A DNA stretch of 40,519 nt from a virus. A program made the translations under genes and the position numbers. Below are positions 14,858 through 40,519 of the stretch, piece by piece (within the stretch, counting starts at the first letter, position 1; the number at the start of each line of letters is the position of its first letter). The notes under the pieces were generated by a model. It did not search any database and was not told the origin of the DNA. It was given only the letters and a program-made list of their open reading frames with translations. The stretch spans positions 1 to 40,519 of IMG/VR virus record IMGVR_UViG_3300033145_002427. The stretch is one strand, 5' to 3'.

Positions 14858-15006
14858 AAGTTAGAGTTTTAATTCCCAGATCTATGAGTGAACAAAAGAA
14901 AGGAGAAATAATAAATATGTTTAATATTGAAAAAGAAAATAAAATATTTTATTTATTTGGTGGAACATACGAAAAGATAGAGGAAGATTTGGAGGAAAAA
15001 GAATGA
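14854..15006 (+). CDS. Small protein, 50 residues
   Basis: MKVRVLIPRSMSEQKKGEII followed by IFYLFGGTYEKIEEDLEEKE. Alternating strand-helix-strand-helix pattern in a tiny protein. ATGA-coupled on both sides with GGAGG just before the next start. Unknown function. Confidence 0.5.
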   Translation: MKVRVLIPRSMSEQKKGEIINMFNIEKENKIFYLFGGTYEKIEEDLEEKE

Positions 15007-15230
15007 GTGAATTAAAAACTTTGAAAGATTTAAGAGAAAATATAGGAGTTCTTGTAGAAGGAGGAATTGTATATCAAAAACTAAAACAAGAAGCAATTAA
15101 GAGGGTTAAGGGATGTAAAGAAATAGTTGGTTTTACATTAGAATGTAGAAATGCAACAAAAGAAAGTAAATGTGGTGGATGTAAAAGGGATATTTGGTTT
15201 AACAACATAACAGAGGAAGATTTAAAATGA
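15003..15230 (+). CDS. Small Cys-containing array protein ending EEDLK
   Basis: 75 residues. Helical start (SELKTLKDLRENIGVLVEGG), then a zinc-like cluster (LECRN...SKCGGCKRDIWF) and the ending ITEEDLK. The protein at 16500 has a similar build (FGCGKV... then NEDLK). It is the first of the array genes whose 3' end carries GATTTAAAATGA, the shared junction sequence. Confidence 0.55.
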   Translation: MSELKTLKDLRENIGVLVEGGIVYQKLKQEAIKRVKGCKEIVGFTLECRNATKESKCGGCKRDIWFNNITEEDLK

Positions 15231-15454
15231 AAAAAGAATTTAAAAAAGAATTTGAAAGGGCTGAAGGCAGGACTGAACAGTGGTGTGCTGTAAAAAGATT
15301 AGAAGTTAGTTTTGAAGAATTTATTAAGAAGTTGAAAGAGGAATTAAGGGAAAGTAAACCTTATCCTAATACTCAATATGTTATGGATTTATATAAATTA
15401 TTTAAAATAGAAATAGAAACAAAGATTGATAAACTTTCAGGGGAGTTGAAATGA
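15227..15454 (+). CDS. Array small protein, AEG-TEQW family, copy 1
   Basis: 75 residues. N-terminal module MKKEFKKEFERAEGRTEQWC, AVKRLEVSFEEFIKKLK is nearly identical to the N-terminus of the 16948 gene, while the C-terminal part differs (KPYPNTQYVMDLYKLFKIEI) and ends EIETKIDKLSGELK. Start by ATGA coupling inside the shared junction. Helical, charged, soluble. Function unknown; interest lies in the modular relationship to its neighbours. Confidence 0.6.
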   Translation: MKKEFKKEFERAEGRTEQWCAVKRLEVSFEEFIKKLKEELRESKPYPNTQYVMDLYKLFKIEIETKIDKLSGELK

Positions 15455-15630
15455 AAAAGAAAATAGAAAAAACAGAAGAAGAAATAAAAAATGAACCACT
15501 AATAATGAAAATGACTGGAAAGAATGGAGAAACAGATTTTTATCTTTATATTAAAGGAGAAGATAAAAACATAAGGAAAGTTATTGGTTTTTTACAGAAA
15601 TATCTTACTTTATGTAAAGTTAAGAAATAA
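15451..15630 (+). CDS. Small protein, 59 residues
   Basis: ATGA-coupled start. Charged N-terminus (MKKKIEKTEEEIKNEPLIMK) and a beta-alpha part (GETDFYLYIKGEDKNIRKVI, GFLQKYL). Unlike its neighbours it lacks the MKKEFK start and the DLK end. Four bases separate it from the next gene. Unknown. Confidence 0.5.
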   Translation: MKKKIEKTEEEIKNEPLIMKMTGKNGETDFYLYIKGEDKNIRKVIGFLQKYLTLCKVKK

Positions 15631-15634
15631 TAAA

Positions 15635-15891
15635 ATGAAAAAAGAATTTAAATTAAGTGATGAAGAAATAATTAAAAAGATTTTAGAAGAAGTAAAGTGT
15701 GGTTATTCTTCAAGCCAAAGAGAATATGAATTTGATGCTATGATTTCTTCTATGACAAAAAGAGTTCTTGAAATTAAAGAGAAAGAATTCAAAGAATTTA
15801 TTAAGATAAAGAAGATGGGGAAGAAAAATGGTATACTAAAGAAGATATTGTGGAGGAAATTGATAAACTCACAGAGGAATATTTAAAATGA
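15635..15891 (+). pseudogene. Array small protein with a frameshift near 15808
   Basis: Start ATG 15635 with the family N-terminus MKKEFKLSDEEIIKKILEEV. Up to ~15807 the frame reads normally (KEFKEFIKI). After that the open frame goes to an atypical Trp/Arg-rich end at 15886, while the -1 frame reads EDGEEKWYTKEDIVEEIDKL followed by TEEYLK and stops at 15889-15891 with the ATGA junction, like the other array genes (compare EIDKLAGDLK). So the ancestral protein probably used the -1 frame for its last ~27 residues. A one-base indel, a sequencing error or programmed slippage could explain it. Confidence 0.6.
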
Positions 15892-16097
15892 AAAAAGAAT
15901 TTAAATTAAGTGATAAAAGAAAATTAATTTATGACAAATTATATACATGGGTAAATAAAGGATTTGCTGATACAATTATTAGTGTAATTAAAAGTCAAGA
16001 TAAAGAGTTTATTAAAAAGTTGAAGAAGCTTAATAGTATTGCTATTAATGAGAATTTGATTAAAGAAATTGATAAACTCGCAGGAGATTTAAAATGA
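15888..16097 (+). CDS. Array small protein, module fusion
   Basis: 69 residues. The N-terminal half (MKKEFKLSDKRKLIYDKLYT) is related to the 16094 gene start. The last ~30 residues, EFIKKLKKLNSIAINENLI then KEIDKLAGDLK, are identical in protein to the end of the 16948 gene, and the DNA is almost identical too. ATGA-coupled on both sides. A mosaic of modules found elsewhere in the array. Confidence 0.62.
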   Translation: MKKEFKLSDKRKLIYDKLYTWVNKGFADTIISVIKSQDKEFIKKLKKLNSIAINENLIKEIDKLAGDLK

Positions 16098-16354
16098 AAA
16101 AAGAATTTAAATTAAAAGATAAAAGACAAGATTTAAGAAATTGTAAATCTACTTTTTTTGTTCCTATTTATTTCGAAGAAGCTGTTAAAGAAGCAACCCA
16201 GAATTTAAAGAAAGAATTGGAAGAAAATTTTAATGATTTTAAAGATAAAATAAGGGTTTATGGGATTGCAGATGTTGATATTCCAGAGGAAATTGATATA
16301 TTGGAAATTAAACAAGACAAAGCATTTGAAAAACATATTGGAGATTTAAAATGA
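16094..16354 (+). CDS. Array small protein, KEATQNLKKE / FEKHIGDLK type, copy 1
   Basis: 86 residues. Starts MKKEFKLKDKRQDLRNCKST, contains AVKEATQNLKKELEE and ends KAFEKHIGDLK. Both latter blocks recur in the 16682 gene. Helical and charged with no catalytic motif seen. ATGA coupling at both ends. Confidence 0.6.
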   Translation: MKKEFKLKDKRQDLRNCKSTFFVPIYFEEAVKEATQNLKKELEENFNDFKDKIRVYGIADVDIPEEIDILEIKQDKAFEKHIGDLK

Positions 16355-16464
16355 AAAAAGAAATAAAACCTTTGAGTGAGAAAGCATTTTGGGAAGACGA
16401 AGAATGGAGAAAGAAAGAAATAAAGAAAAAAAAGGACAGCGGAAAGTGGAATAAGGAAGTTTGA
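16351..16464 (+). CDS. Very small basic protein, 37 residues
   Basis: MKKEIKPLSEKAFWEDEEWR then a Lys-rich stretch ending KWNKEV. It begins in the shared junction sequence but lacks the DLK end, so it may be a truncated array member. Confidence 0.42.
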   Translation: MKKEIKPLSEKAFWEDEEWRKKEIKKKKDSGKWNKEV

Positions 16465-16499
16465 AGAATATCTTAAATCAGGGAGCAGAACTTATTAAA

Positions 16500-16685
16500 A
16501 TGAAAAATAAAACTTTAGAACTTGAAACTAATTGGACAATGGAAAGTTTATTAAAACAAATTAAAGAATGTGAAGGAAAACATATTCAACAAGTTGTTTT
16601 TAGCACTTATCATAAAGCATTAACTCAAATTTGTTTTGGATGTGGAAAAGTTAGAACTATGTTAAAAAATGAGGATTTAAAATGA
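16500..16685 (+). CDS. Small Cys-containing array protein ending NEDLK
   Basis: 61 residues from ATG 16500; a TTG at 16461 overlapping the previous TGA would add 13 residues and cannot be excluded. Middle ESLLKQIKECEGKHIQQVVF, then ICFGCGKVRTMLKNEDLK. One CxxC plus an upstream Cys may bind zinc. Related in layout to the 15003 protein. The 3' end is the shared junction. Confidence 0.52.
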   Translation: MKNKTLELETNWTMESLLKQIKECEGKHIQQVVFSTYHKALTQICFGCGKVRTMLKNEDLK

Positions 16686-16951
16686 AAAAAGAATTTAAAT
16701 TATTTGAGAAAATATATGTAACTGATAGATTAGGAAATAGTCTTTCTAATGAAGATTTAATTAAAGTAAATAAAGTAGAAGATGTTAAAGAAGCAACACA
16801 GAATTTAAAGAAAGAAGTGAAGAAAAATCATATAGTAAGATTGGAAGGACATATTACTCCAGATTATAAAGAAGGGTTTTGGGAAGGTGTTAATTTTATG
16901 AGAAAAAAAACAGACAAAGCATTTGAAAAACATATTGGAGATTTAAAATGA
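16682..16951 (+). CDS. Array small protein, KEATQNLKKE / FEKHIGDLK type, copy 2
   Basis: 89 residues. Starts MKKEFKLFEKIYVTDRLGNS, has VKEATQNLKKEVKKNHIVRL and ends DKAFEKHIGDLK, matching the 16094 gene in the middle and end but not between. The unique insert is HITPDYKEGFWEGVNFMRKK. ATGA coupled. Confidence 0.6.
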   Translation: MKKEFKLFEKIYVTDRLGNSLSNEDLIKVNKVEDVKEATQNLKKEVKKNHIVRLEGHITPDYKEGFWEGVNFMRKKTDKAFEKHIGDLK

Positions 16952-17130
16952 AAAAAGAATTTAAAAAAGAATTAGAAAGGGCTGAAGGTAATACTGAACA
17001 GTGGTGTGCTGTAAAAAGATTAGAAGTTGATTTTAAAGAATTTATTAAAAAGTTAAAGAAGCTTAATAGTATTGCTATTAATGAGAATTTAATCAAAGAA
17101 ATTGATAAACTCGCAGGAGATTTAAAATGA
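16948..17130 (+). CDS. Array small protein, AEG-TEQW N-module fused to KLAGDLK C-module
   Basis: 60 residues. The first ~33 residues match the 15227 gene (MKKEFKKELERAEGNTEQWC); the last ~30 match the 15888 gene (NSIAINENLIKEIDKLAGDL). It is thus an exact two-module chimera of two other array genes, supporting recombination as the source of the array. ATGA coupled. Confidence 0.62.
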   Translation: MKKEFKKELERAEGNTEQWCAVKRLEVDFKEFIKKLKKLNSIAINENLIKEIDKLAGDLK

Positions 17131-19875: not shown

Positions 19876-20270
19876 AATATCGAGGAAGAGCAAAACAAAT
19901 AAAAGATTTTTCTGGTTTAAGATGGAAAAACATAACTCCTACAGATATAGATGGGTTTGTAGAATTTGGAAACAAGGTTTTTATTTTTATTGAATTTAAA
20001 TGTTTTGGGGTTGAGTTGCCTTTTGGGCAGAGATTAGCAATAGAAAGATTGGTAGATGCAGTTTCTTTAACTGGAAAATCATGTATTGGAATAGTTGCAG
20101 AACACAATAATCCAATAGGAGAAGATATAAATTGTGAAGAAGCAATTGTTAAAGAAATAAGAAAAGATTCACAATGGAATTCTTCGGAAAAAATTAATTT
20201 AAAAAAAGTCATAGATATCTTTTTGGAGGAGCATGCGCCAGAATATGTTAATAATCAAATAAAATGTTAG
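19857..20270 (+). CDS. PD-(D/E)XK-like nuclease
   Basis: 137 residues, overlapping the methyltransferase gene by 19 bases. PTDIDGFVEFGNKVFIFIEF followed by K gives the D...ExK core of this superfamily, with an upstream helix containing R/K. Such small nucleases in viral recombination blocks act as resolvase-, restriction- or VRR-like enzymes. Direct adjacency to the Dam-type gene makes a restriction-like pairing possible but unproven. Confidence 0.55.
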   Translation: MERGKIKYRGRAKQIKDFSGLRWKNITPTDIDGFVEFGNKVFIFIEFKCFGVELPFGQRLAIERLVDAVSLTGKSCIGIVAEHNNPIGEDINCEEAIVKEIRKDSQWNSSEKINLKKVIDIFLEEHAPEYVNNQIKC

Positions 20271-20473
20271 GACCAAAAAAATGCCCAGAGTGGCTTAAAA
20301 AAGCATACAAGAAAGCAGTTGATTATACTTGTGAAGATTGTGGGAAAAAAGAACCAGAAATAAAATTAGAGATTCATAGAATAATTCAAGGATATAAAGG
20401 AGGAACATATAGGCCAGGGAATGTGAAAGTGCTTTGTAAAGAGTGTCATAAAAGATATGCAGAAGAATGGTAG
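20264..20473 (+). CDS. Small HNH endonuclease
   Basis: 69 residues. YTCEDCGKKEPEIKLEIHRI, then YRPGNVKVLCKECHKRYAEE: two CxxC pairs, the H of EIHRI, N of PGNV and H of ECHKR form the HNH (beta-beta-alpha metal) signature. Small freestanding HNH genes are common in virus genomes as packaging-related or homing nucleases. Overlaps the upstream gene by 7 bases. Confidence 0.7.
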   Translation: MLGPKKCPEWLKKAYKKAVDYTCEDCGKKEPEIKLEIHRIIQGYKGGTYRPGNVKVLCKECHKRYAEEW

Positions 20474-23627: not shown

Positions 23628-24815
23628 ATGAAATTAAAAATAGAATATTTAAAAATAAATGATATTAAACCTTATTCAAAAAATCCTAGAAAAAACGAAA
23701 AAGCAGTAGAAATAGTAACAAAGAGTATAAAAGAATTTGGATTTAAGAATCCAATAATTTTAGATAAAAATAATGAAATAATTGCAGGACATACAAGATT
23801 AAAAGCAGCAATTAAATTAAATCTTAAAGAAGTACCAGTAATATGGGCAAAAGATTTAACAAAAGAACAAGTAAAAGCATTTAGAATTATGGATAATAAA
23901 AGTCAAGATTTTGCAGAATGGGATGAAGAATTACTAAAAGAAGAATTTTATGCATTAGAAGGATCAGATGCATTTGAATTCACTGGATTTACAGATGAAG
24001 AAATAAGTAATATTTGGGATAAAGAAACAAAAGAAGATGATTTTAAATTACCAAAAGAAGCGAAATATAAAATAGAACAAGGCGAAATATGGCAATTAGG
24101 AAATCATAGGCTCATGTGTGGGGATGCCACTAAAAAAGAGGATGTAGGTAGGTTAATGGGTGAAAACAAGGCAGATATGGTATTTACTGATCCTCCATAT
24201 AATGTAAATTATTCAAGCCTCGGCTTGAATAAAAATTTAGGGAAATTAAAGAATGATAATTTGTCTTCAGAAGAATTTGATAAATTTTTGATGGACACTT
24301 GTAAATCAATAAATGATTTTCTTATAGAAGATTGTCCAATATATCTGTGTCACGGGGACACAGATATGAATGCATTGCCTTTTTATAAGATATTTAATAA
24401 AATGGATTGGAAAAGAAGCACAAGTATTATTTGGGCAAAGAATGTAGCAAGTATGGGGTGGCAAGATTATAGAAACCAGCACGAAGTTATTAGTTATGGA
24501 TGGAAAGGAAAAAAACCATATTTTACAAAAGAGAGAGATAAAACAAGTTTATGGTTAATTAAAAGGGATGCACCACAAAAATATGAACATTCAACACAGA
24601 AACCAGTAGAATTATCTTCTGAAGCAATAAAAAATAGTTCTAAATTAAATGATATAGTTTTAGATTTATTTGGTGGCTCAGGAAGTACCTTAATTGCATG
24701 CGAACAATTAAACAGAAAGTGTTATATGATGGAGATAGACCCTGTTTATTGCTCAATAATCATTGAAAGATGGGAAAAGTTCACTGGAAACAAGGGGGTA
24801 AAAGAGAGTGGATAA
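23628..24815 (+). CDS. ParB-like domain fused to beta-class DNA methyltransferase
   Basis: 395 residues, SD GGTGGAG. N-terminus is ParB-like: INDIKPYSKNPRKNEKAVE, FGFKNPIILD, IIAGHTRLKAAI. From ~residue 150: GEIWQLGNHRLMCGDATKKE, the catalytic TDPPYNVNY (motif IV), then QKPVELSSEA and VLDLFGGSGSTLIACEQLN (motif I). Motif IV before I defines the beta class, which methylates adenine N6 or cytosine N4. Full-length for ParB-MTase phage proteins. Second modification enzyme of the virus, adjacent to the terminase. Confidence 0.83.
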   Translation: MKLKIEYLKINDIKPYSKNPRKNEKAVEIVTKSIKEFGFKNPIILDKNNEIIAGHTRLKAAIKLNLKEVPVIWAKDLTKEQVKAFRIMDNKSQDFAEWDEELLKEEFYALEGSDAFEFTGFTDEEISNIWDKETKEDDFKLPKEAKYKIEQGEIWQLGNHRLMCGDATKKEDVGRLMGENKADMVFTDPPYNVNYSSLGLNKNLGKLKNDNLSSEEFDKFLMDTCKSINDFLIEDCPIYLCHGDTDMNALPFYKIFNKMDWKRSTSIIWAKNVASMGWQDYRNQHEVISYGWKGKKPYFTKERDKTSLWLIKRDAPQKYEHSTQKPVELSSEAIKNSSKLNDIVLDLFGGSGSTLIACEQLNRKCYMMEIDPVYCSIIIERWEKFTGNKGVKESG

Positions 24816-25248
24816 GAAAGAAAATTCACAAAAGTCACAAAATTCAGTAAAAAAGATAAGAATTCTTAGTGGAAAGAAGAAAAGAATGTTTGAGGCATTA
24901 CAAGATCAGTTAGGGGTGATTACTGCTGCAGCAAAACAAACAGGAATATCTCGAAGAACACATTATAAATGGTTAAAAAAGGATGATAATTATCAATATT
25001 GGATTAAGCAGATTCCAGATTTATGTTTGGATTTTGTAGAAAATGCTTTATTTAAAAATATTAAAGCAGGAAAGACTGCTGAGATTATTTTTTATTTAAA
25101 AACTAAAGGGAAGCATAGAGGATATATTGAGAAGTCTGAAATAGATATTTTGGATGAAAGAACAAGAATAATTATTCAAAAAGCTGATGATGAAAGTAAT
25201 AAAGTGGAAACCAAGTCAAAGGCAGGAGAAGGCCTTAAAACTTCTTAA
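24808..25248 (+). CDS. terS: Terminase small subunit
   Basis: 146 residues, GTG start preceded by AAGGGGG and overlapping the methyltransferase by 8 bases. KKKRMFEALQDQLGVITAAA, KQTGISRRTHYKWLKKDDNY is the DNA-binding helix-turn-helix of small terminases, followed by a helical oligomerisation region. Located immediately before the large terminase. The original large terminase start (25187 or 25190) lies inside its last ~60 bases. Confidence 0.78.
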   Translation: MDKKENSQKSQNSVKKIRILSGKKKRMFEALQDQLGVITAAAKQTGISRRTHYKWLKKDDNYQYWIKQIPDLCLDFVENALFKNIKAGKTAEIIFYLKTKGKHRGYIEKSEIDILDERTRIIIQKADDESNKVETKSKAGEGLKTS

Positions 25249-25282
25249 TGATGGTTTTTTAAATGTGAGAGTTGTTAAATAA
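25187..25282 (+). pseudogene. terL: Truncated 5' end of the original large terminase gene
   Basis: This frame reads MMKVIKWKPSQRQEKALKLL then NDGFLNVRVVK and stops two bases before the HNH gene. It aligns with the start of the second copy at 25804 (MKTITWKPSKRQERALELLN), about 15 of 20 positions identical in the W-K-P-S-x-R-Q-E-x-A-L-x-L-L-N-D block. It ends exactly where the P-loop strand should begin. So it is the remnant (or separate exon-like part) of the terminase N-terminus cut off by the HNH insertion. Confidence 0.75.
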
Positions 25283-25284
25283 AT

Positions 25285-25794
25285 ATGGGATTACATAAAG
25301 GACAAACAAATTCTGGAAGTTTCAAGAAGGGAGAACATAGAAGTAGATTGACAGAATTTAAAAAAGGAGAAAGAAATTCAAAAGAAACTGAATTTGGAAA
25401 TAAACCTCCTTGGAATAAAGAAAAAAAAACAGGGCAAGTTCCATGGAACAAAGGGAAAAAAGGGGTTTATTCAGAAGAAACAATAAAAAGGATAAGTGAT
25501 AGTTTAAGAAAACCAACAACACTTATAAAAAGGGCTTTGAGAGATCATTTTAAATCAACTGCATGGAGAATGGCTGTTTTTGAAAGAGATAATTATACTT
25601 GTCAAGATTGTGGAAAAAGAGGATATTTAGAAGCACATCACAAAAAACCATTTATTCAAATTATAGAAGGAAATAATATTAAAACATTGAAAGAAGGGAT
25701 ATTCTGTGATGAATTATGGGATTTAGATAATGGTATTACCTTATGTAAAAAATGTCACAAAAAGAGACATAAAAAAGAGGGATATAGGAGGTGA
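25285..25794 (+). CDS. NUMOD3/HNH homing endonuclease between terS and terL
   Basis: 169 residues. N-terminal half has repeated NUMOD3-like segments (GSFKKGEHRSRLTEFKKGER, PPWNKEKK, VPWNKGKKG, YSEETIKRISDSLRK). The C-terminal half is an HNH domain: FERDNYTCQDCGKRGYLEAH, H-K-K-P-F, LDNGITLCKKCHKKRHKK. Freestanding homing endonucleases of this type target conserved genes beside them; here the two flanks are two versions of the terminase 5' end. Its tail carries the SD (GGAGGTGA) for the second terminase start. Confidence 0.82.
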   Translation: MGLHKGQTNSGSFKKGEHRSRLTEFKKGERNSKETEFGNKPPWNKEKKTGQVPWNKGKKGVYSEETIKRISDSLRKPTTLIKRALRDHFKSTAWRMAVFERDNYTCQDCGKRGYLEAHHKKPFIQIIEGNNIKTLKEGIFCDELWDLDNGITLCKKCHKKRHKKEGYRR

Positions 25795-25803
25795 AATTAA
25801 TCC

Positions 25804-27149
25804 ATGAAAACAATAACATGGAAGCCATCTAAAAGACAAGAGCGAGCATTAGAATTACTTAATGATAATGTCCACACTGAAATCTTTTACGGTGGCGGAG
25901 CCTAGCGGGAGGAGGTAAGTCTTATCTTGGGTGTGCATGGTTAATTTTTAATTGTATTGATTATCCTGGAAGCAGATGGTTAATGGGTAGGGCAATTCTT
26001 AAAAGTTTAAAAGAAAGTACATTATTAACCTTTTTTCAAGTATGTAAAGAATTTAATTTAAAGCCAGGAGTAGATTATAAATATAATGCAATTGAAGGAA
26101 CAATTAAATTTTGGAATGATAGTTCAATTTATTTAAAGGATTTATTTTTATATCCAAGTGATCCAGAATTTGATTCGCTTGGAAGTACGGAATATACAGG
26201 AGCATTTATTGATGAGGCAAGTCAAATCACAGCCAAAGCAAAGAATATTGTTATGAGTAGAATAAGATATAAATTAGATGAGTTTAGTTTGGTACCAAAA
26301 CTTTTAATTGCAAGTAATCCAGCAAAGAACTTTTTATATTTTGAATTTTATAAACCAGATAAAGAAGGAACAATTGAACCATATAGAGCCTTTATTCCAG
26401 CATTAGTAGGGGATAATCCTTTTATATCAAAATATTATATTGAAAATTTAAAAAAGTTAGATAGAATTTCAAAAGAAAGGTTGCTTTATGGTAATTTTGA
26501 ATATGATGATGATCCAACCAGATTATTTGAATATGATGCAATTATAGATTTATTTACAAATTCAGTAGAAAAGGGGGATAAGTATTGCACAGTTGATGTT
26601 GCAGGTAGAGGCAGGGATAGAACAATGATTTTAATTTGGAATGGGCTTTTTATTGAAAAGATTTATAATCTTAGTAATATTTCAAATGAAGAATTAGATA
26701 ATATTTTAACAAAGAACAAAGTTCAAAGAAGTAAGTGTGCAATTGATGAAGATGGTGTAGGATTTGGATTAGTAAAGGATTTGCCAGGAGTAAAAGGATT
26801 TGTAAATAATGCAAGGCCAATAACAAGAAAAAAAGAAACAGAAACTGAAAAAGCAATACATAATTATGCAAATTTAAAAGCACAGTGTTGGTTTGAATTA
26901 GCAAATTATGTAAATTCAGGATGGATAGGAATTACAAAAGATGTTAAGGTAGAAACAAGAGAAATGATTATTGAAGATTTAGAACAAATAAAACAAAAGG
27001 ATCCAGGCAAAGATCAGCCACTTAGAATATTAACAAAGGATGAAATAAAAGAAAATTTAGGTAGATCAACAGATGTTGGTGATGCAATGATGATGAGAAT
27101 GTTTTTTATAGTTTCAAAAAATGAAATGGTTTTGGAGTTTGTGGATTAA
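25804..27149 (+). CDS. terL: Terminase large subunit with broken Walker A reading frame
   Basis: From ATG 25804 (SD AGGAGGTGA) the frame reads MKTITWKPSKRQERALELLN then EIFYGGGA and hits TAG at 25903-25905. The proper continuation GGGKSYLGCAWLIFNCIDYP starts at 25908 in another frame; deleting five bases (CCTAG or CTAGC) restores FYGGGAGGGKS. Downstream all large terminase features are intact: Walker B GAFIDEASQ, SNPAKN (coupling motif region), nuclease motifs TVDVAGRGRDRT, CAIDEDGVGFG and STDVGDAMMMR. The only intact start downstream (ATG 25983) would lack the P-loop. Sequencing error, strain chimera, true mutation or an unusual decoding/splicing event are all possible. Confidence 0.85.
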
Positions 27150-27150
27150 A

Positions 27151-27375
27151 ATGAAATTACAAGAAATAATAGATAATATGCCCATAATTAGGTTTTTCCA
27201 AAAATTAAAAGAACCAGACATTATTGGAAAATGTCAGTGTGGTTATTATGGTAAGTTTAAATATAGTCATTCAAAAGAAAATAATAACAAAGTATATAAT
27301 GCCTACTATACTTGTCCAAAGTGTAAAGAAATATTTAAAGAAGAAATTTTATTCAAAAACAAAAATGATAGATAA
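27151..27375 (+). CDS. Small zinc-ribbon protein
   Basis: 74 residues from ATG 27151 just after the terminase stop; an ATG at 27121 lies within terL. IIGKCQCGYYGKFKYSH and YYTCPKCKEIFKE give CxC...CxxC ligands of a ribbon. Sits between terminase and portal, where small accessory proteins often occur. Overlaps the next gene by 11 bases. Confidence 0.55.
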   Translation: MKLQEIIDNMPIIRFFQKLKEPDIIGKCQCGYYGKFKYSHSKENNNKVYNAYYTCPKCKEIFKEEILFKNKNDR

Positions 27376-27610
27376 AAAAAAAGTTAATGAAATAAGTAAA
27401 ATGTTACTTAATTTGAAAGAACAATGTAAAGGTATTAAGATGAAAACTAAAACAATTGAATCTCTTTTTGAAGGTGCTGAAATAAGAGAGTGTCCTTATT
27501 GTCATACTCTTAATTTAGTTTATTTGGTGGGAAGTGATAAAGAAAAATTTGATATGTATTTTTGTAATAAATGTAATAATACTTATATGGAAAGGTGGGA
27601 TAAATTTTGA
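27365..27610 (+). CDS. Small zinc-ribbon protein
   Basis: 81 residues from ATG 27365. A helical, basic N-terminus (MIDKKKVNEISKMLLNLKEQ) precedes ECPYCHTLNLVYLVG and MYFCNKCNNTYMERW, two CxxC pairs. Probably a DNA- or protein-binding packaging accessory. Longer upstream extension would overlap the previous gene and is rejected. Confidence 0.55.
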   Translation: MIDKKKVNEISKMLLNLKEQCKGIKMKTKTIESLFEGAEIRECPYCHTLNLVYLVGSDKEKFDMYFCNKCNNTYMERWDKF

Positions 27611-27665: not shown

Positions 27666-30600
27666 ATGGAAATAAATTTTAAGAATTTATTTGGTTTAAT
27701 AAAAGAAAAATCTGTACCGATAATAGATCCAATCAGTGAACAAACAAGAAATGCACAGCCGAAAGCTTATATTCCAAAGTTCATATATAAGCCACCTTTT
27801 GGTTATCCTAGATTTGTAGATTTACCAAACATTAGAAGATTAGCAGCAACACCTTTTGTAGAAATGTGTGTATCAACAACAGTAGATGAATTGTGTGCAG
27901 TTGAATGGGATATTGTTGCAAAGGAAGGAAAAGAAGATTCTCCAACACTTGAAGACCATATTAAACAGGTTAAAAATTTTTATGACAATCCAAATACAAA
28001 TAAAGAAAGTTTTGAAGAAATTAGAAGAAAATATTTAAGAGATCTTTTAGAAATTGATTCTGGAGTTATAAATAAACTTTTTAATATGAAAGGTGAAATG
28101 GTTGAGATAGTGGCAAGAGATGGAGCAACATTTACTAAGAATCCAGATATTTATGGAATGATGACTGATCGTGAAGATTTGATAATGGATACAGAAATCA
28201 ATACATCTAAAGAAGCAAGATTAATGGAGCCAGGATGGATTACAGCAGCAGATGCAAGGGAGAAAGCAGCTTATTTTCAATATGGTTGGATTAGTGGAGC
28301 AAGACCAGTTCCATTTGGAAAAAAAGAAATTGTTTGGTTTGAGAAAAATCCTCGAACAGATTCAATTTATGGAAGAAGTCCAGTGCAAGTTTTGGCAGAA
28401 ACAATTCAAACATTAATCTATTCAATTGAACATAACTTAGAATATTTTTCAGATAATGAAATTCCACGAGGAATAATTGGATTAGAAAATTCAAGTGCAG
28501 AAGAAGTGAAAGCATTTAAAGACCAATGGAAAGAAAATCTAAGAGTAAAAGATAGTGCAGGAAATTGGAAAAAGAAATTCCACCACATTCCTGTTACAAA
28601 TAAAACACCTACTTTTACAAGATTAGAATTAACAAATTCAGAATTAGAATTATTAGAAGGACAAAAATGGTGGGCAAAATTAGTGTGGGCCTGTTATGAT
28701 GATAAAACAGAAATATTAACAGATGATGGATTTAAATTATTTAAGGATTTAATAAATGAAAAAGTTGCAAGAGTTAATCCAGAAAATTTAGAGATAGATT
28801 TTGTTAATCCAGTGGATAAGCAAGAATATGATTTTGATGGAGAATTAATTAATTATAAAACTAAATCTTGTGATTTGATGGTAACACCTGAGCATAAAAT
28901 GCTTATGTGCAATAGAAGTAAATTTTATGAGGGAAAAGTTAACTGGGAAGAAAAACAGGCAAAGGATTTTGATGAAGGAATAATCCCTCAGGCAGGAAAT
29001 TTTAATGGAGAAAAGATTGAAAAGGTTAAATTTGGAGATTTGGAAATAGATGGAGATGATTTCTGTAAATTTATGGGAATTTGGTTAAGTGATGGATGGA
29101 TTGAAAGTTCAAATAATAGGGTTTGTTTATGTGCAAGCCAAGTTTATCCAGAAAATATGAAATTCATTGAGAATTTATTAGTAGATTTTGGGGTAGATTA
29201 TAAAATAAAAGTAAGTGAACCAAATGCATTAATTCAAGGAAAAGCAGTTAAAATAAATGGGATGATGAATTATTATAGATTTTCTAATCCAGAATTAAAA
29301 GAATATTTAATTCAATTTGGAAAAGCAAAAGAAAAGTTTGTCCCAAAGATTATTTTAAATGCAAGTAAAGAACAAAGAGAATTATTTTTAGATGCTTTTA
29401 TGTTAGGAGATGGTTCAAGAGGATGTAAGGGAAGAAATGATAGGTATGGAAGTATGAGCAAAAATTTATTAGATGGATTACAAGAAATATTAATTAAAAA
29501 TGGAAAATCAGCAACATTATTCCAAAATAGTTTTAATGGTTGTTGGGAATTAACAGTAAGAAAAAATAAATCTGATAAAATAAAAGAAAAATATTATTCA
29601 AGGATTATTAAGGAAAATGTTTCAAAACAAAAATATAAAGGAAAAGTTTATGATGTTACAGTTCCAGAAAATCACTTTTTAGTTGTTAGAAGGAATGGTA
29701 GGGTTTCAATAAGTGGAAATTGTTTTGGAGTAACTGCAACAGAACTTGGATATACTGAAGAATCAAAAGGAATGTCTAATCAGATAGTGCAAAGTAATAT
29801 TTTCAAAAAAAGAACATTAAATCCAATTTTAAGATTAGAAGAATATAAACACAATAAAGAAATAATTAGTGAATTTGAATTTGATGATATTGAATTTAAG
29901 TTTATGATGTTTGATGTTGAAGATGAAACAAAGAAAGCAAATTTATATAAAACACAATTAGATGCAGGTTATAAATCAATTAATGAAATTAGATTAGAAG
30001 AAGGATTAGATGAAGTAGAATGGGGGGACAAAATGTCTGAACAAGATAGATTTGATATGAATAATCAATTTGGAGATGAAAATCCTTTTGGAAGTGAAAA
30101 AGAAGATTTAGAAAAAGAGAGCAAATTACAATCAAGAACAGAAAAACCTGAAAAAGAAAAGAAGGGGTTGATGAGAAGAAAATTTAATAAAAGTGAAGAA
30201 GCTAGAAAAGCAGAACAATTACTTAATGAAGAAGGGATTCATGCAGTTTTACCTTTTGATGATGGAGGAATGTCTGTTGTAATTAGTGATAAAGATGTAG
30301 ATGAAGCAAAAAGAATTTTAGATAATAAAGGATTGATAGGGGTAAAAGATATAGAATCTAAACCAGGAATGGGGCATTCAGACAAATGGTGGGATATGTA
30401 TCATGCATTAATTAAACAAGGCCATTCAAAAGAAAGTGCAGCCAAAATAACTAATTCTAAAATAAAAAGTAAAGCAATGCAAACAGATAATCCTTTAATT
30501 TTAAAACCAAATGAAAGAATGGATGATAATAGACTAAAACAAAGCATAGTTTATTTAATGAAACAAAATGAAAAAAAAATTAAGGAATTAATTGAAAAAG

Positions 30601-31211
30601 AAATGGGACAAAATAAATTAATGAAGATTAAATCTGTTGATAGTATAGCCAAAAGAATTAAAGATTTAATTACATTTCAAGGATTAAAAACAATCAGCGA
30701 TGCTGTTATTAAGAATACTTTTATGAATGGTTGGGATAGTGCAGAAAAACAATTAGATAGAAATTTTATAGTTAATCGTGAAGTAATAGATTATATACAA
30801 AATTATACCTTTAATAATATTAAAGGAATGACTGAAGAAATATCTCAAGATTTAAGACAAGAATTAGAAAGGGGAATTATGTCTGGGGAAGGAATTACAA
30901 AAATAAAAGCCAGGATAAGTAAGGTTTTTGATGTGGGAGAAAATCGTGCAGATATGATAGCACGGACAGAAACAAATAGAAGTGAAAATCAAGGAAAATT
31001 ACAAGGATTCAAAGCAAGTGGAGAAGAGTTAAATAAAAAATGGGTTGCAGCTATGGATAATAGAACAAGTGAATTATGTAAAAGATTAAATGGACAAGTA
31101 GTAGGAATTAATGAAAATTTCAAAGATAAGCAAACTAAAGGAGAATGGCCTTGTCCTCCAGCACATGTGGATTGCAGAAGTGCAGTTATTTATTTATCAA
31201 AAGAAGAATAG
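27666..31211 (+). CDS. Portal protein with intein, fused to MuF-like head morphogenesis domain
   Basis: 1,181 residues; 838 after removing the intein at residues 343-685. The N-extein is portal-like: YIPKFIYKPPFGYPRFVDLP, LRDLLEIDSGVINKL, YGRSPVQVLAETIQTLIYSI, and resumes CFGVTATELGYTEESKGMSN. After the portal core comes a region resembling a DUF2007-type alpha-beta module (EEGIHAVLPFDDGGMSVVIS), then KWWDMYHALIKQGHSKESAA. The last ~140 residues are MuF-like (MIARTETNRSENQGKL, WVAAMDNRTSELCKRLNGQ, CPPAHVDCRSAVIYL). Portal-MuF fusion in one gene is uncommon but known; internal cleavage cannot be judged. Confidence 0.83.
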   Translation: MEINFKNLFGLIKEKSVPIIDPISEQTRNAQPKAYIPKFIYKPPFGYPRFVDLPNIRRLAATPFVEMCVSTTVDELCAVEWDIVAKEGKEDSPTLEDHIKQVKNFYDNPNTNKESFEEIRRKYLRDLLEIDSGVINKLFNMKGEMVEIVARDGATFTKNPDIYGMMTDREDLIMDTEINTSKEARLMEPGWITAADAREKAAYFQYGWISGARPVPFGKKEIVWFEKNPRTDSIYGRSPVQVLAETIQTLIYSIEHNLEYFSDNEIPRGIIGLENSSAEEVKAFKDQWKENLRVKDSAGNWKKKFHHIPVTNKTPTFTRLELTNSELELLEGQKWWAKLVWACYDDKTEILTDDGFKLFKDLINEKVARVNPENLEIDFVNPVDKQEYDFDGELINYKTKSCDLMVTPEHKMLMCNRSKFYEGKVNWEEKQAKDFDEGIIPQAGNFNGEKIEKVKFGDLEIDGDDFCKFMGIWLSDGWIESSNNRVCLCASQVYPENMKFIENLLVDFGVDYKIKVSEPNALIQGKAVKINGMMNYYRFSNPELKEYLIQFGKAKEKFVPKIILNASKEQRELFLDAFMLGDGSRGCKGRNDRYGSMSKNLLDGLQEILIKNGKSATLFQNSFNGCWELTVRKNKSDKIKEKYYSRIIKENVSKQKYKGKVYDVTVPENHFLVVRRNGRVSISGNCFGVTATELGYTEESKGMSNQIVQSNIFKKRTLNPILRLEEYKHNKEIISEFEFDDIEFKFMMFDVEDETKKANLYKTQLDAGYKSINEIRLEEGLDEVEWGDKMSEQDRFDMNNQFGDENPFGSEKEDLEKESKLQSRTEKPEKEKKGLMRRKFNKSEEARKAEQLLNEEGIHAVLPFDDGGMSVVISDKDVDEAKRILDNKGLIGVKDIESKPGMGHSDKWWDMYHALIKQGHSKESAAKITNSKIKSKAMQTDNPLILKPNERMDDNRLKQSIVYLMKQNEKKIKELIEKEMGQNKLMKIKSVDSIAKRIKDLITFQGLKTISDAVIKNTFMNGWDSAEKQLDRNFIVNREVIDYIQNYTFNNIKGMTEEISQDLRQELERGIMSGEGITKIKARISKVFDVGENRADMIARTETNRSENQGKLQGFKASGEELNKKWVAAMDNRTSELCKRLNGQVVGINENFKDKQTKGEWPCPPAHVDCRSAVIYLSKEE
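28692..29720 (+). mobile_element. LAGLIDADG intein in the portal gene
   Basis: 343 residues from Cys1 (CYDDKTEILTDDGF, block A) to Asn before the +1 Cys (SGN|CFG). Block B: SCDLMVTPEHKMLM with the TxxH-type TPEH. Endonuclease motifs: FCKFMGIWLSDGWIE and ELFLDAFMLGDGSRG, both LAGLIDADG-type. Block F: KVYDVTVPENHFLVVRRNG. The penultimate residue is Gly instead of the usual His. Removing it restores a continuous portal sequence WAKLVWA-CFGVTATELG. Frame is preserved at both ends. Confidence 0.88.
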
Positions 31212-35682: not shown

Positions 35683-35863
35683 TATTTTATCTAGGGAAAA
35701 TCGTGTAATGATTAATGAAATAAAAGAAGATATAAAAGAAATTAAGGTTAATATGGTTAATATTTCAAATCATTATTCTAAAAGATTGCCTGGATGGGTA
35801 ACCATAGTAATAACAGTTTTAGGAGCAACAGTCACTGGATTGATTGTTGCAGGAGTTAAATAA
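35672..35863 (+). CDS. Small single-span membrane protein (XhlA-like)
   Basis: 63 residues; SD AAGGAGG upstream. A soluble coiled-coil part (VMINEIKEDIKEIKVNMVNI) is followed by a C-terminal transmembrane helix (GWVTIVITVLGATVTGLIVA). This layout recalls hemolysin XhlA-type phage lysis proteins, which have the same order. Placement within the head module is unusual for a lysis gene. Function uncertain. Confidence 0.52.
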   Translation: MTNSILSRENRVMINEIKEDIKEIKVNMVNISNHYSKRLPGWVTIVITVLGATVTGLIVAGVK

Positions 35864-35900
35864 TGGCAGATTTTTTAAACTTGGGAGGTGTAGAATAAAT

Positions 35901-36521
35901 ATGGTATGGAATAAAGGAAAGAAATTATCAAAAGAACATAAAGAAAATTTAAGCAAAGCTCGTAAAGAATTTTATAAAAATAATCCTCATCCAAGAGGGA
36001 TGTTAGGGAAGACAAATAAATGGGGAAATCATTCTGAAGAAACTAAAAGATTAATTGGGAAAAAAAGTAAAGGAAGAAAATATCCAAATAGAAAAAGACC
36101 TCCAGCAATGACTCAAGAGCAAAGAATAAAAATTAGTAGGGCATTAAAGGGGAGAAAGAATCCAAATAAAGCGAGAATTGGAAAAAAGAATGGATTTTGG
36201 AAAGGTGGAATATCTTTTGAACCTTATGATGAACAATTTAATAACAAATTCAAACGAGTAATTAGAAAAAGGGATAATCATATTTGTATGATGTGTGGGA
36301 TTCATAGAGAAAAATTAAATAGGGCATTGGATATTCATCATATTAATTATAATAAATTAATTTCAATTCCTCAAAATTGTGTAAGTTTATGTCATTCCTG
36401 TCATGCTAAAACTGGTTGGAATAGAAAATATTGGATTAAATTTTTTCAAGGAATATTATCAGAAAAATATGGTTATAAATATTCTGAAAATAAAGATATA
36501 ATATTGGAGGTTGAAAAATGA
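35901..36521 (+). CDS. NUMOD3/HNH homing endonuclease before the connector gene
   Basis: 206 residues from ATG 35901 with SD GGGAGGTG; an upstream ATG at 35844 lies in the previous gene. NUMOD3 repeats: LSKEHKENLSKARKEFY, SEETKRLIGKKSKGRKYPN, TQEQRIKISRALKGRKNPN, then KKNGFWKGGIS. HNH domain: KRDNHICMMCGIH, ALDIHHINYNK, NCVSLCHSCHAKT, ending KYWIKFFQG. Second of this type in the genome. It overlaps the connector gene by four bases, so it did not disrupt coupling. Confidence 0.82.
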   Translation: MVWNKGKKLSKEHKENLSKARKEFYKNNPHPRGMLGKTNKWGNHSEETKRLIGKKSKGRKYPNRKRPPAMTQEQRIKISRALKGRKNPNKARIGKKNGFWKGGISFEPYDEQFNNKFKRVIRKRDNHICMMCGIHREKLNRALDIHHINYNKLISIPQNCVSLCHSCHAKTGWNRKYWIKFFQGILSEKYGYKYSENKDIILEVEK

Positions 36522-40300: not shown

Positions 40301-40519
40301 AGGAGATTCAAGATGGTTAACTTCTGTAGCATATAATGATTTAACAGGTAGTCCTGCAGATAGAATTACAACAAATAGTCATATTAGTTGGGATGGAGAT
40401 ATATTAAATGTTGCTGATGATTGGTGGAATGCTTACTCTGATTTTATGGGAACTACAACTACAGATAAATGGTGTAAGTGGGATGGTTCTCAAATAGATT
40501 GTAATGTTGAACCAGTTAC
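37362..40519 (+). CDS. Fibre-like adhesin with YYNSTDF repeats, N-terminal part (continues at base 1)
   Basis: This is the 5' part of a 1,133-residue protein that continues across the circle junction to the stop at 356-358. The ATG follows the connector stop by one base. Residues 1-22 form a hydrophobic signal peptide or anchor (FIIATFLIALTVLVAA). The body carries about ten copies of a motif of the form YYNS[T/S]DF[S/D]I[S/A]DY, each with an N-glycosylation sequon, separated by NxT/S-rich stretches. Position among virion genes, length and repeats suggest an extended surface fibre or adhesin. The secretory-type N-terminus is unusual for a bacteriophage tail fibre and fits a glycosylated archaeal virus. 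No enzymatic domain is recognised. The frame shows no stop to the window end. Confidence 0.8.
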   Translation, partial: MKSKNIFIIATFLIALTVLVAADFTPQGNINLRDYYNLTGALYINSTLYYGNGSQLTGVIGSANSSDYWDNMNTINTTQMENSGGVLNILESWLKSLFYTKAEVNTNIENANTSVVNWVDLLFPRFTELVNQVGNWSADKSDYYTWPVIDAFNLSHWTDDLGDRGYTDLLNFTNSPGFYNSTDFEISNYYLVSNPFDYYNSTNPQTEIDPYWTANQSSYSTTADIIAFGYYNSSDFVITDYFTKSDIEGFNYYNSTDFSIADYFTSAEVLAFDYYNSSDFDILDYVTSTTLLGYNYYNSTDFSISDYATNVKVDSIGNFTAWNKDYNDLINTPTFTNDTWVDTNFVRFTELVGQVGNWTSDKVNYYTSTQTDTAIENGNTTLYNWIVAQDYLDDYTETDSLAYNGTLAYLSDILGWDYYNSTDFSISDYYTKVNINSFDYYNSTDFDYNDYYLDSNPDNFIDWSKAVNGTLFLSSEYNASGLIKDWTVDLSDYPTLDEIIGFNYYNSTDFDYNDYYLKSNPFSFYNITNAPTYINDTFAGNYSTFLTHIDWSDATNGTLALSSEIPTNNNQLTNGNNYWNDTYATFNKTYGDTIYSPISEPLSLHLNQDNWFNDSNDWIYWDNPTITFNESKLETTYYLASAINVVTGTGAGSLADIQTYNVVTYNVTEVNSDFELIVNFTGITDFTTLLVRHKIDTTDGHNPTIQIWDYTTSSWEGYGYLSELTTSKMQTLGVYDADEHISGGVVQVRFYLNEIGNAGHVHQFDWVGLSKGYGTPVGEEIDPIWVAEKSDYYTSAETDTEIGSANTSVVGWADGKFVVNSGGDSLSGQYDFNGGWTSSGLSIINGNLYAQTGYFYNISGLDVNDLRINGSLLPTVGFDNQFDIGNSTLKWKDLYLGGKIFATDWTNVSITESQISDLQDYYLNSNPFSFYNSTDFSISDYATNVKVDSIGNFTAWDKDYNDLINTPTIPILWDSAFNTTGDSRWLTSVAYNDLTGSPADRITTNSHISWDGDILNVADDWWNAYSDFMGTTTTDKWCKWDGSQIDCNVEPV
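40406..40519. repeat. Terminal direct repeat, right copy
   Basis: Exact second copy of bases 1-114. Removing one copy gives a circular length of 40,405 bp. Confidence 0.93.

Follow-up and report, generated by a model that had tools for sequence, protein, structure and literature searches.

We analyzed the virus record IMGVR_UViG_3300033145_002427, a stretch of 40,519 nt which is referred to below, at its full length, as the window. Positions 1-114 and 40406-40519 form an exact direct repeat of 114 bp at the two ends. Therefore the record is probably complete and either circular or terminally redundant. A long repetitive NSTDF-rich protein spans the junction of the terminal repeats.

The terminase locus consists of a terS-like gene, followed by an HNH gene and then by terL, which occupies 25804-27149 in total (Table 1). 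No second terL was found in the 40,519 nt of the window.

Table 1. Features of the terminase locus in the window.
Feature	Position	Strand	Remarks
terS-like gene (small terminase position)	24808-25248	+	ORF; Pfam HTH matches below or near cut-off
Copy 1 of the terL 5' end, vestigial (ATGAAAGTAATAAAGTGG...)	25190-25252	+	73% identical to 25804-25866 over 63 nt
HNH endonuclease gene, free-standing, putative homing endonuclease	25285-25794	+	Pfam PF01844, E=1e-6; HNH_2, PF13391, E=8e-5
Copy 2, 5' part of terL: MKTITWKPSKRQERALELLNDNVHTEIFYGGGA, followed by the stop TAG (25903-25905)	25804-25905	+	
Remainder of terL in the resumed frame (AGGGKS...), with the ATPase and nuclease domains	25905-27149	+	Pfam Terminase_6N, E=1.6e-7
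Five extra bases compared with intact relatives: CTAGC	25902-25906	+	equivalently CCTAG, 25901-25905
Proposed bypass site GCC-TA-GCG	25900-25907	+	take-off GCC 25900-25902, gap TA 25903-25904, landing GCG 25905-25907

The broken terL gene and its duplicated start

The second copy of the terL start reads MKTITW...EIFYGGGA and then meets TAG, while GGGKS continues in a different frame past the five extra bases. A first-pass annotation of this DNA had reported that FYGGGA is followed by TAG and that GGGKS returns only when five bases are removed, and we confirmed it for both equivalent placements of the insert. The break lies about 100 nt downstream of the HNH gene, the 3' end of which is about 120 nt upstream of the Walker A lysine codon. 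The codons GCC and GCG on the two sides of the gap are synonymous (Ala), and the stop codon directly follows the first of them. The remainder of terL is open over 414 codons up to its normal stop, as had been described, and has 44 relatives among viral contigs. In pairs of broken genes we observed purifying selection on both parts of the split gene (for the downstream part, window versus the relative L005, dN was 0.097 and dS was 1.04), although dN/dS of such pairs partly reflects the time preceding the gain of the insert.

The earlier statement that the terL N-terminus occurs twice held true. The first copy was also said to stop exactly at the P-loop, and this part did not hold, as the two copies cease to be similar at LLND, which precedes the P-loop by about nine residues. 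The first copy sits within the 3' end of the terS-like gene, in another frame, as relatives with intact genes (e.g. L010) have overlapping terS and terL. An insertion which leaves both terS and terL complete necessarily duplicates this overlap. Duplications of the terL 5' end were also detected in L050 (77 nt, 78%) and in L151 (48 nt, 77%), in the latter with another kind of HNH gene. The gene between the two copies had been named NUMOD3/HNH; we retained HNH, and NUMOD3 was not called by Pfam for this gene.

The window contains two other HNH genes, at 35844-36521 and 20264-20473. The former encodes NUMOD3 and HNH, and the DNA of its 5' part resembles the HNH region adjacent to terL.

The record is of metagenomic origin, and both a wrong base call and a contig mixing strains had been proposed as sources of the break. 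We found the same five bases in L059, a separate contig of this virus (99.6% identity over 13.6 kb, with 8 mismatches and an indel), and in the diverged relatives L005 and L006 (87% amino acid identity). As independent assemblies with different SNPs and diverged relatives share the insert, an error of sequencing, base calling or assembly is ruled out, and we leave practically no probability to error or strain mixture as a whole.

Reassignment of TAG to a sense codon was rejected too: TAG ends ordinary genes of the window including the portal gene, there are no tRNA genes, and the frame changes at the break. An intein at this site was likewise rejected, as no frame is open across the break and true P-loop inteins (e.g. 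in L031) look different. Such inteins were present in the terL relatives L027, L031, L139, L158 and L186, where they end in ...HN before S or T.

Removal of the insert from RNA or DNA, by a mini-intron, by RNA editing or through a functional sub-population of genomes free of the insert, would also restore the protein, and a spliced terL intron beside a homing endonuclease in phage ICP1 (PMC10448857) makes splicing a known solution at terL. We consider it improbable. Inserts of 5-14 nt, the range found in this study, are far shorter than any known intron, which also makes the splicing bypass suggested earlier unlikely, and a removal machine would not need the synonymous codons next to the stop. 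We obtained no Rfam match at E<=1, to a group I or II intron or to another known RNA, in positions 24500-27500 of the window, and no intron in 12 other loci. The insert was, moreover, found in separate assemblies.

Recurrence of short inserts in the Walker A codons

We searched 2.9 million viral contigs for the five-base pattern together with its Walker A context. There were 15 matching contigs, all 15 in the Walker A codons of terL, and these terL genes belong to very different families. A looser pattern gave no additional matches in viral contigs. When any Ala codon was allowed at the take-off position, GCD-TAG-C was identified in six more terL genes. GCN-TA-GCN, as in the window, occurs in 17 further lineages. 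The cellular genomes scanned (257 Gb) contained only three matches to a near-identical pattern, all outside terL and attributable to chance. The five-base pattern at the terL Walker A codons is not due to chance.

When the two bases after T were left free, a stop codon was found in 16 of 17 matches (TAG in 14, TAA in 1, TGA in 1). The exception is L303 (887-917), which reads GCC-TTG-CTGG, with the sense codon TTG (UUG) replacing the usual TAG; an internally deleted HNH remnant lies upstream of it.

Further, we surveyed terL relatives with queries placed downstream of the motif and without reference to any break. The surveys returned about 180 intact terL genes, the five P-loop inteins mentioned above and other breaks at the same seven codons. 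The inserts at the Walker A codons were 5, 6, 8, 13 or 14 nt long. Their types included GGT-TGAAT-GGT, GGT-TGAAT-GGC, GGC-TGAAA-GGT, GGT-TAA-GGC, GCT-TAA-GCG, GCG-TGATAAAAAAA-GCT, GGT-TGACTAAACT-GGA and GGT-TA-GGT, together with less regular ones. In two terL families 13/80 and 6/80 of the surveyed loci were broken (query loci excluded). When broken and intact states were mapped on a tree of 181 terL proteins, 25 changes of state were required, and well-supported branches enforce at least 17 of them. The terL Walker A codons are a hot spot for short inserts containing a stop; the earlier description of the P-loop as a hot spot agrees with these inserts and with the five inteins.

The inserts are regular. 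Skipping exactly the insert regains the Walker A sequence of the family (GGGAGGGK, GGAAGGGK or GGSAGGGK) in 29/32 lineages, the stop stands right after the take-off codon in 29/32, and take-off and landing codons are synonymous in 25/32. We compared the 16 lineages found by survey with simulated random inserts of equal length. All 16/16 have a stop in frame within the motif (0.09-0.20 in the simulation), and in 9/16 the codon preceding the stop and the one where reading resumes are synonymous (0.08 in the simulation, p = 9e-7).

These values bear on the possibility that the broken genes are dead, i.e. that endonuclease cutting followed by failed or error-prone repair left genomes with a non-functional terL, which were then sampled. 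The breaks do lie at the presumed cut site and adjoin endonuclease genes. Random inserts would nevertheless give a stop and synonymous codons only at the low simulated frequencies, frame breaks further downstream are absent, and the same insert recurs in separate samples and in lineages whose dS reaches about 1 or above and whose dN/dS is low. The proportions of broken loci in the two families are also too high for dead ends. We therefore regard dead genes as very improbable. The five bases, which had been suggested to be a repair scar, are rather one case of a recurrent and stereotyped class of short stop-containing inserts.

A number of loci depart from the simple rule. The landing codon is ACA in L038, L153 and L226 and GTA in L149, hence not synonymous, and in L225, L229 and L232 one sense codon precedes the stop. 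Two separate breaks occur in one Walker A motif in L225 and in L232, and the second ones are regular (GGT-TAA-GGC and GGT-TA-GGT). In the clade of these two loci we counted five different breaks in 5/11 close relatives. As synonymous take-off and landing codons are missing in seven of 32 lineages, pure cognate re-pairing cannot explain all cases.

In L026, at about position 711, an in-frame TAG directly follows GGGKS and the frame is unchanged (AAATCTTAGCTTGG versus TAT or similar in relatives).

In isolated phages, a 52-nt query aligned to terL only with the insert gapped, and tblastn with terL queries detected no broken isolate among the few isolate P-loops that were read. The Walker A codons are intact in the isolates BS-TP3 and phi10:1, and terL is annotated as one continuous gene in Versailles and P12002L.

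HNH genes at broken loci and the proposed bypass

We compared the surroundings of broken and intact loci. An HNH gene or remnant was present within 1.3 kb of 18/27 broken and 6/123 intact loci (Fisher p = 5e-12), and it ended 94-155 nt upstream of the Walker A lysine codon in 16/27 and 1/123, respectively; broken loci served as seeds for the HNH profiles, which biases this comparison mildly. Three kinds of HNH genes were found at broken loci: the HNH/HNH_2 type of the window, an HNH_3 type and a NUMOD4-like HNH_3 type. Internally deleted remnants were detected in L005, L054 and L303. No HNH was found within 1.3 kb of the other 9/27 broken loci, which is expected if the endonuclease decays after fixation.

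The broken L056, which carries the same insert as the window, and the intact L141, with an empty site, are a near-identical pair. They are 90-100% identical in terS and again beginning some 30-60 nt beyond the lysine codon, while their identity falls to 60-84% from -120 to +30 around the insert. Judged from the alignment, this divergence is a conversion patch centred on the insert. A similar but less sharp pattern was observed between L229 and L227. The HNH association, the L056/L141 patch and the duplications in L050 and L151 support the earlier suggestion of a homing event that co-converted the 5' end of terL.

Similar breaks occur in dozens of unrelated viruses, often beside a gene for a DNA-cutting enzyme, so ribosomes probably jump over them. 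Our preferred reading, to which we give a probability of about 0.7, is that homing-endonuclease cassettes carry a tiny insert as a resistance mark and that ribosomes hop over this insert. The HNH gene and the five bases would form one selfish unit. The HNH protein would cut terL alleles within the Walker A codons, which are highly conserved, and during repair the recipient would acquire the donor's endonuclease gene, terL 5' end and five bases; of this step the footprints described above can be seen. The old terL 5' end of the recipient would remain as a duplicate because terS overlaps terL. The five bases would disrupt the cut site and thus protect the carrier. As changes of Walker A residues would not be tolerated, the mark must be silent at the protein level.

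The order of codons at the break suggests how this may be achieved. The ribosome would decode up to the Ala codon GCC and then meet TAG. Peptidyl-tRNA-Ala would detach from its codon and re-pair with the Ala codon GCG five bases downstream, and the ribosome would continue in the new frame, giving an ordinary Walker A, GGGAGGGKS. Inserts of 5, 6, 8, 13 and 14 bases at neighbouring codons in other viruses would follow the same logic with Ala or Gly at take-off. Later the endonuclease may decay or be lost, while the silent insert stays. We observed no unusual RNA structure around ten sites (folding compared with shuffled sequences, z from -1.7 to +1.5).

The same homing cassette might instead be decoded by a frameshift at the stop (a skip of UA or a shift of minus one), which would add one or two residues to the loop and involve no hop of peptidyl-tRNA. 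For all 5-nt inserts, shifting by +2 at the stop yields a motif that is one residue longer and still conforms to GxxxxGK[ST], and this would cover the unmatched cases with ACA, GTA, TCG or CTG. The inserts of 6, 8, 13 and 14 nt, however, restore the motif only when skipped whole. Furthermore, the extra residue would fall in a loop whose length is invariant among the approximately 180 intact relatives, and there is no slippery sequence. We consider a frameshift unlikely.

Beyond the window, we lean towards the view that introns and inteins are not the only mobile inserts that stay silent in the protein, and that a further general class exists. It would consist of translational bypass elements of 5-14 nt which, spreading with diverse free-standing HNH homing endonucleases, repeatedly colonised the TerL Walker A codons of tailed viruses; ordinary host ribosomes would hop over them with no need for RNA structures.

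Relation to known bypassing and mobile elements

To our knowledge, nearly all discussion of efficient natural bypassing of translation in phages has centred on T4 gene 60. There, as at the terL loci, an HNH endonuclease gene (mobA) adjoins a short insert in an essential gene, a stop directly follows the take-off codon, and take-off and landing codons are matched (PMC5009743, PMC3014915). The T4 insert is thought to protect against the adjacent mobA endonuclease (PMC5009743, PMC3014915), and a description from 2010 called the bypass unique to T4 (PMC3014915). Several differences can be listed. The T4 insert has 50 nt and lies in a topoisomerase gene, whereas the terL cases have 5-14 nt and lie in the Walker A codons of TerL. 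The T4 bypass needs a nascent-peptide signal and a stem-loop, while the ten terL sites that were folded are without evident structure. Finally, the T4 case was described in 2010 as the only one, and the terL inserts are of several types on at least 17 branches of the tree.

Stop-hops between matched codons flanking a stop, in a 9-nt layout, have been described in synthetic E. coli constructs, and no natural in-frame stop-hop was known (PMC5009743). L151 (GGT-TAA-GGC) and L189 (GCT-TAA-GCG) share exactly this 9-nt layout and are natural sites, unlike the laboratory constructs. A short coding gap in a phage terminase gene has also been reported (PMC5009743). Compared by its description, it is centred on a UUA codon and was proposed to be regulatory, and neither a homing endonuclease nor a Walker A hot spot is described there. 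In the mitochondria of Magnusiomyces capitatus many short inserted blocks within one system are silenced by ribosomal bypass; they are spread over many genes of one mitochondrial genome and no adjacent endonuclease is described (PMC5009743), whereas the terL cases affect one motif of one gene in many viruses.

Two other systems share the target. The terL intron of ICP1, which works with an outside endonuclease (collaborative homing), occupies the same gene, and the P-loop inteins of TerL share both gene and motif with the inserts; in these systems the endonuclease targets conserved codons and a silent insert protects (PMC10448857, PMC5050341). Intron and inteins are silenced by RNA or protein splicing, respectively, while the inserts of 5-14 nt carry no splicing element.

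We found no report of recurrent hopped inserts at the TerL Walker A in the open-access literature, to which our search was confined (subscription papers lay outside it). If the preferred reading is true, minimal versions of bypassing stand in those codons of a virus gene that are most essential, with many origins and often beside an endonuclease gene, and the loci would amount to a collection of natural hop sites for which gap length and stop are defined. A selfish DNA-cutting gene could then mark an unchangeable protein motif without an intron or intein, and such terL genes would have been missed in virus catalogues or mis-annotated there as broken.

Two further features of the window were noted. 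The portal gene (27666-31211; Phage_portal and Mu F-like domain) contains an intein with a LAGLIDADG_3 endonuclease domain at residues ~350-672. At 15003-17130 there are approximately eight small tandem genes, adjacent and overlapping, most of which start with MKKEFK and end in a similar ...GDLK tail.
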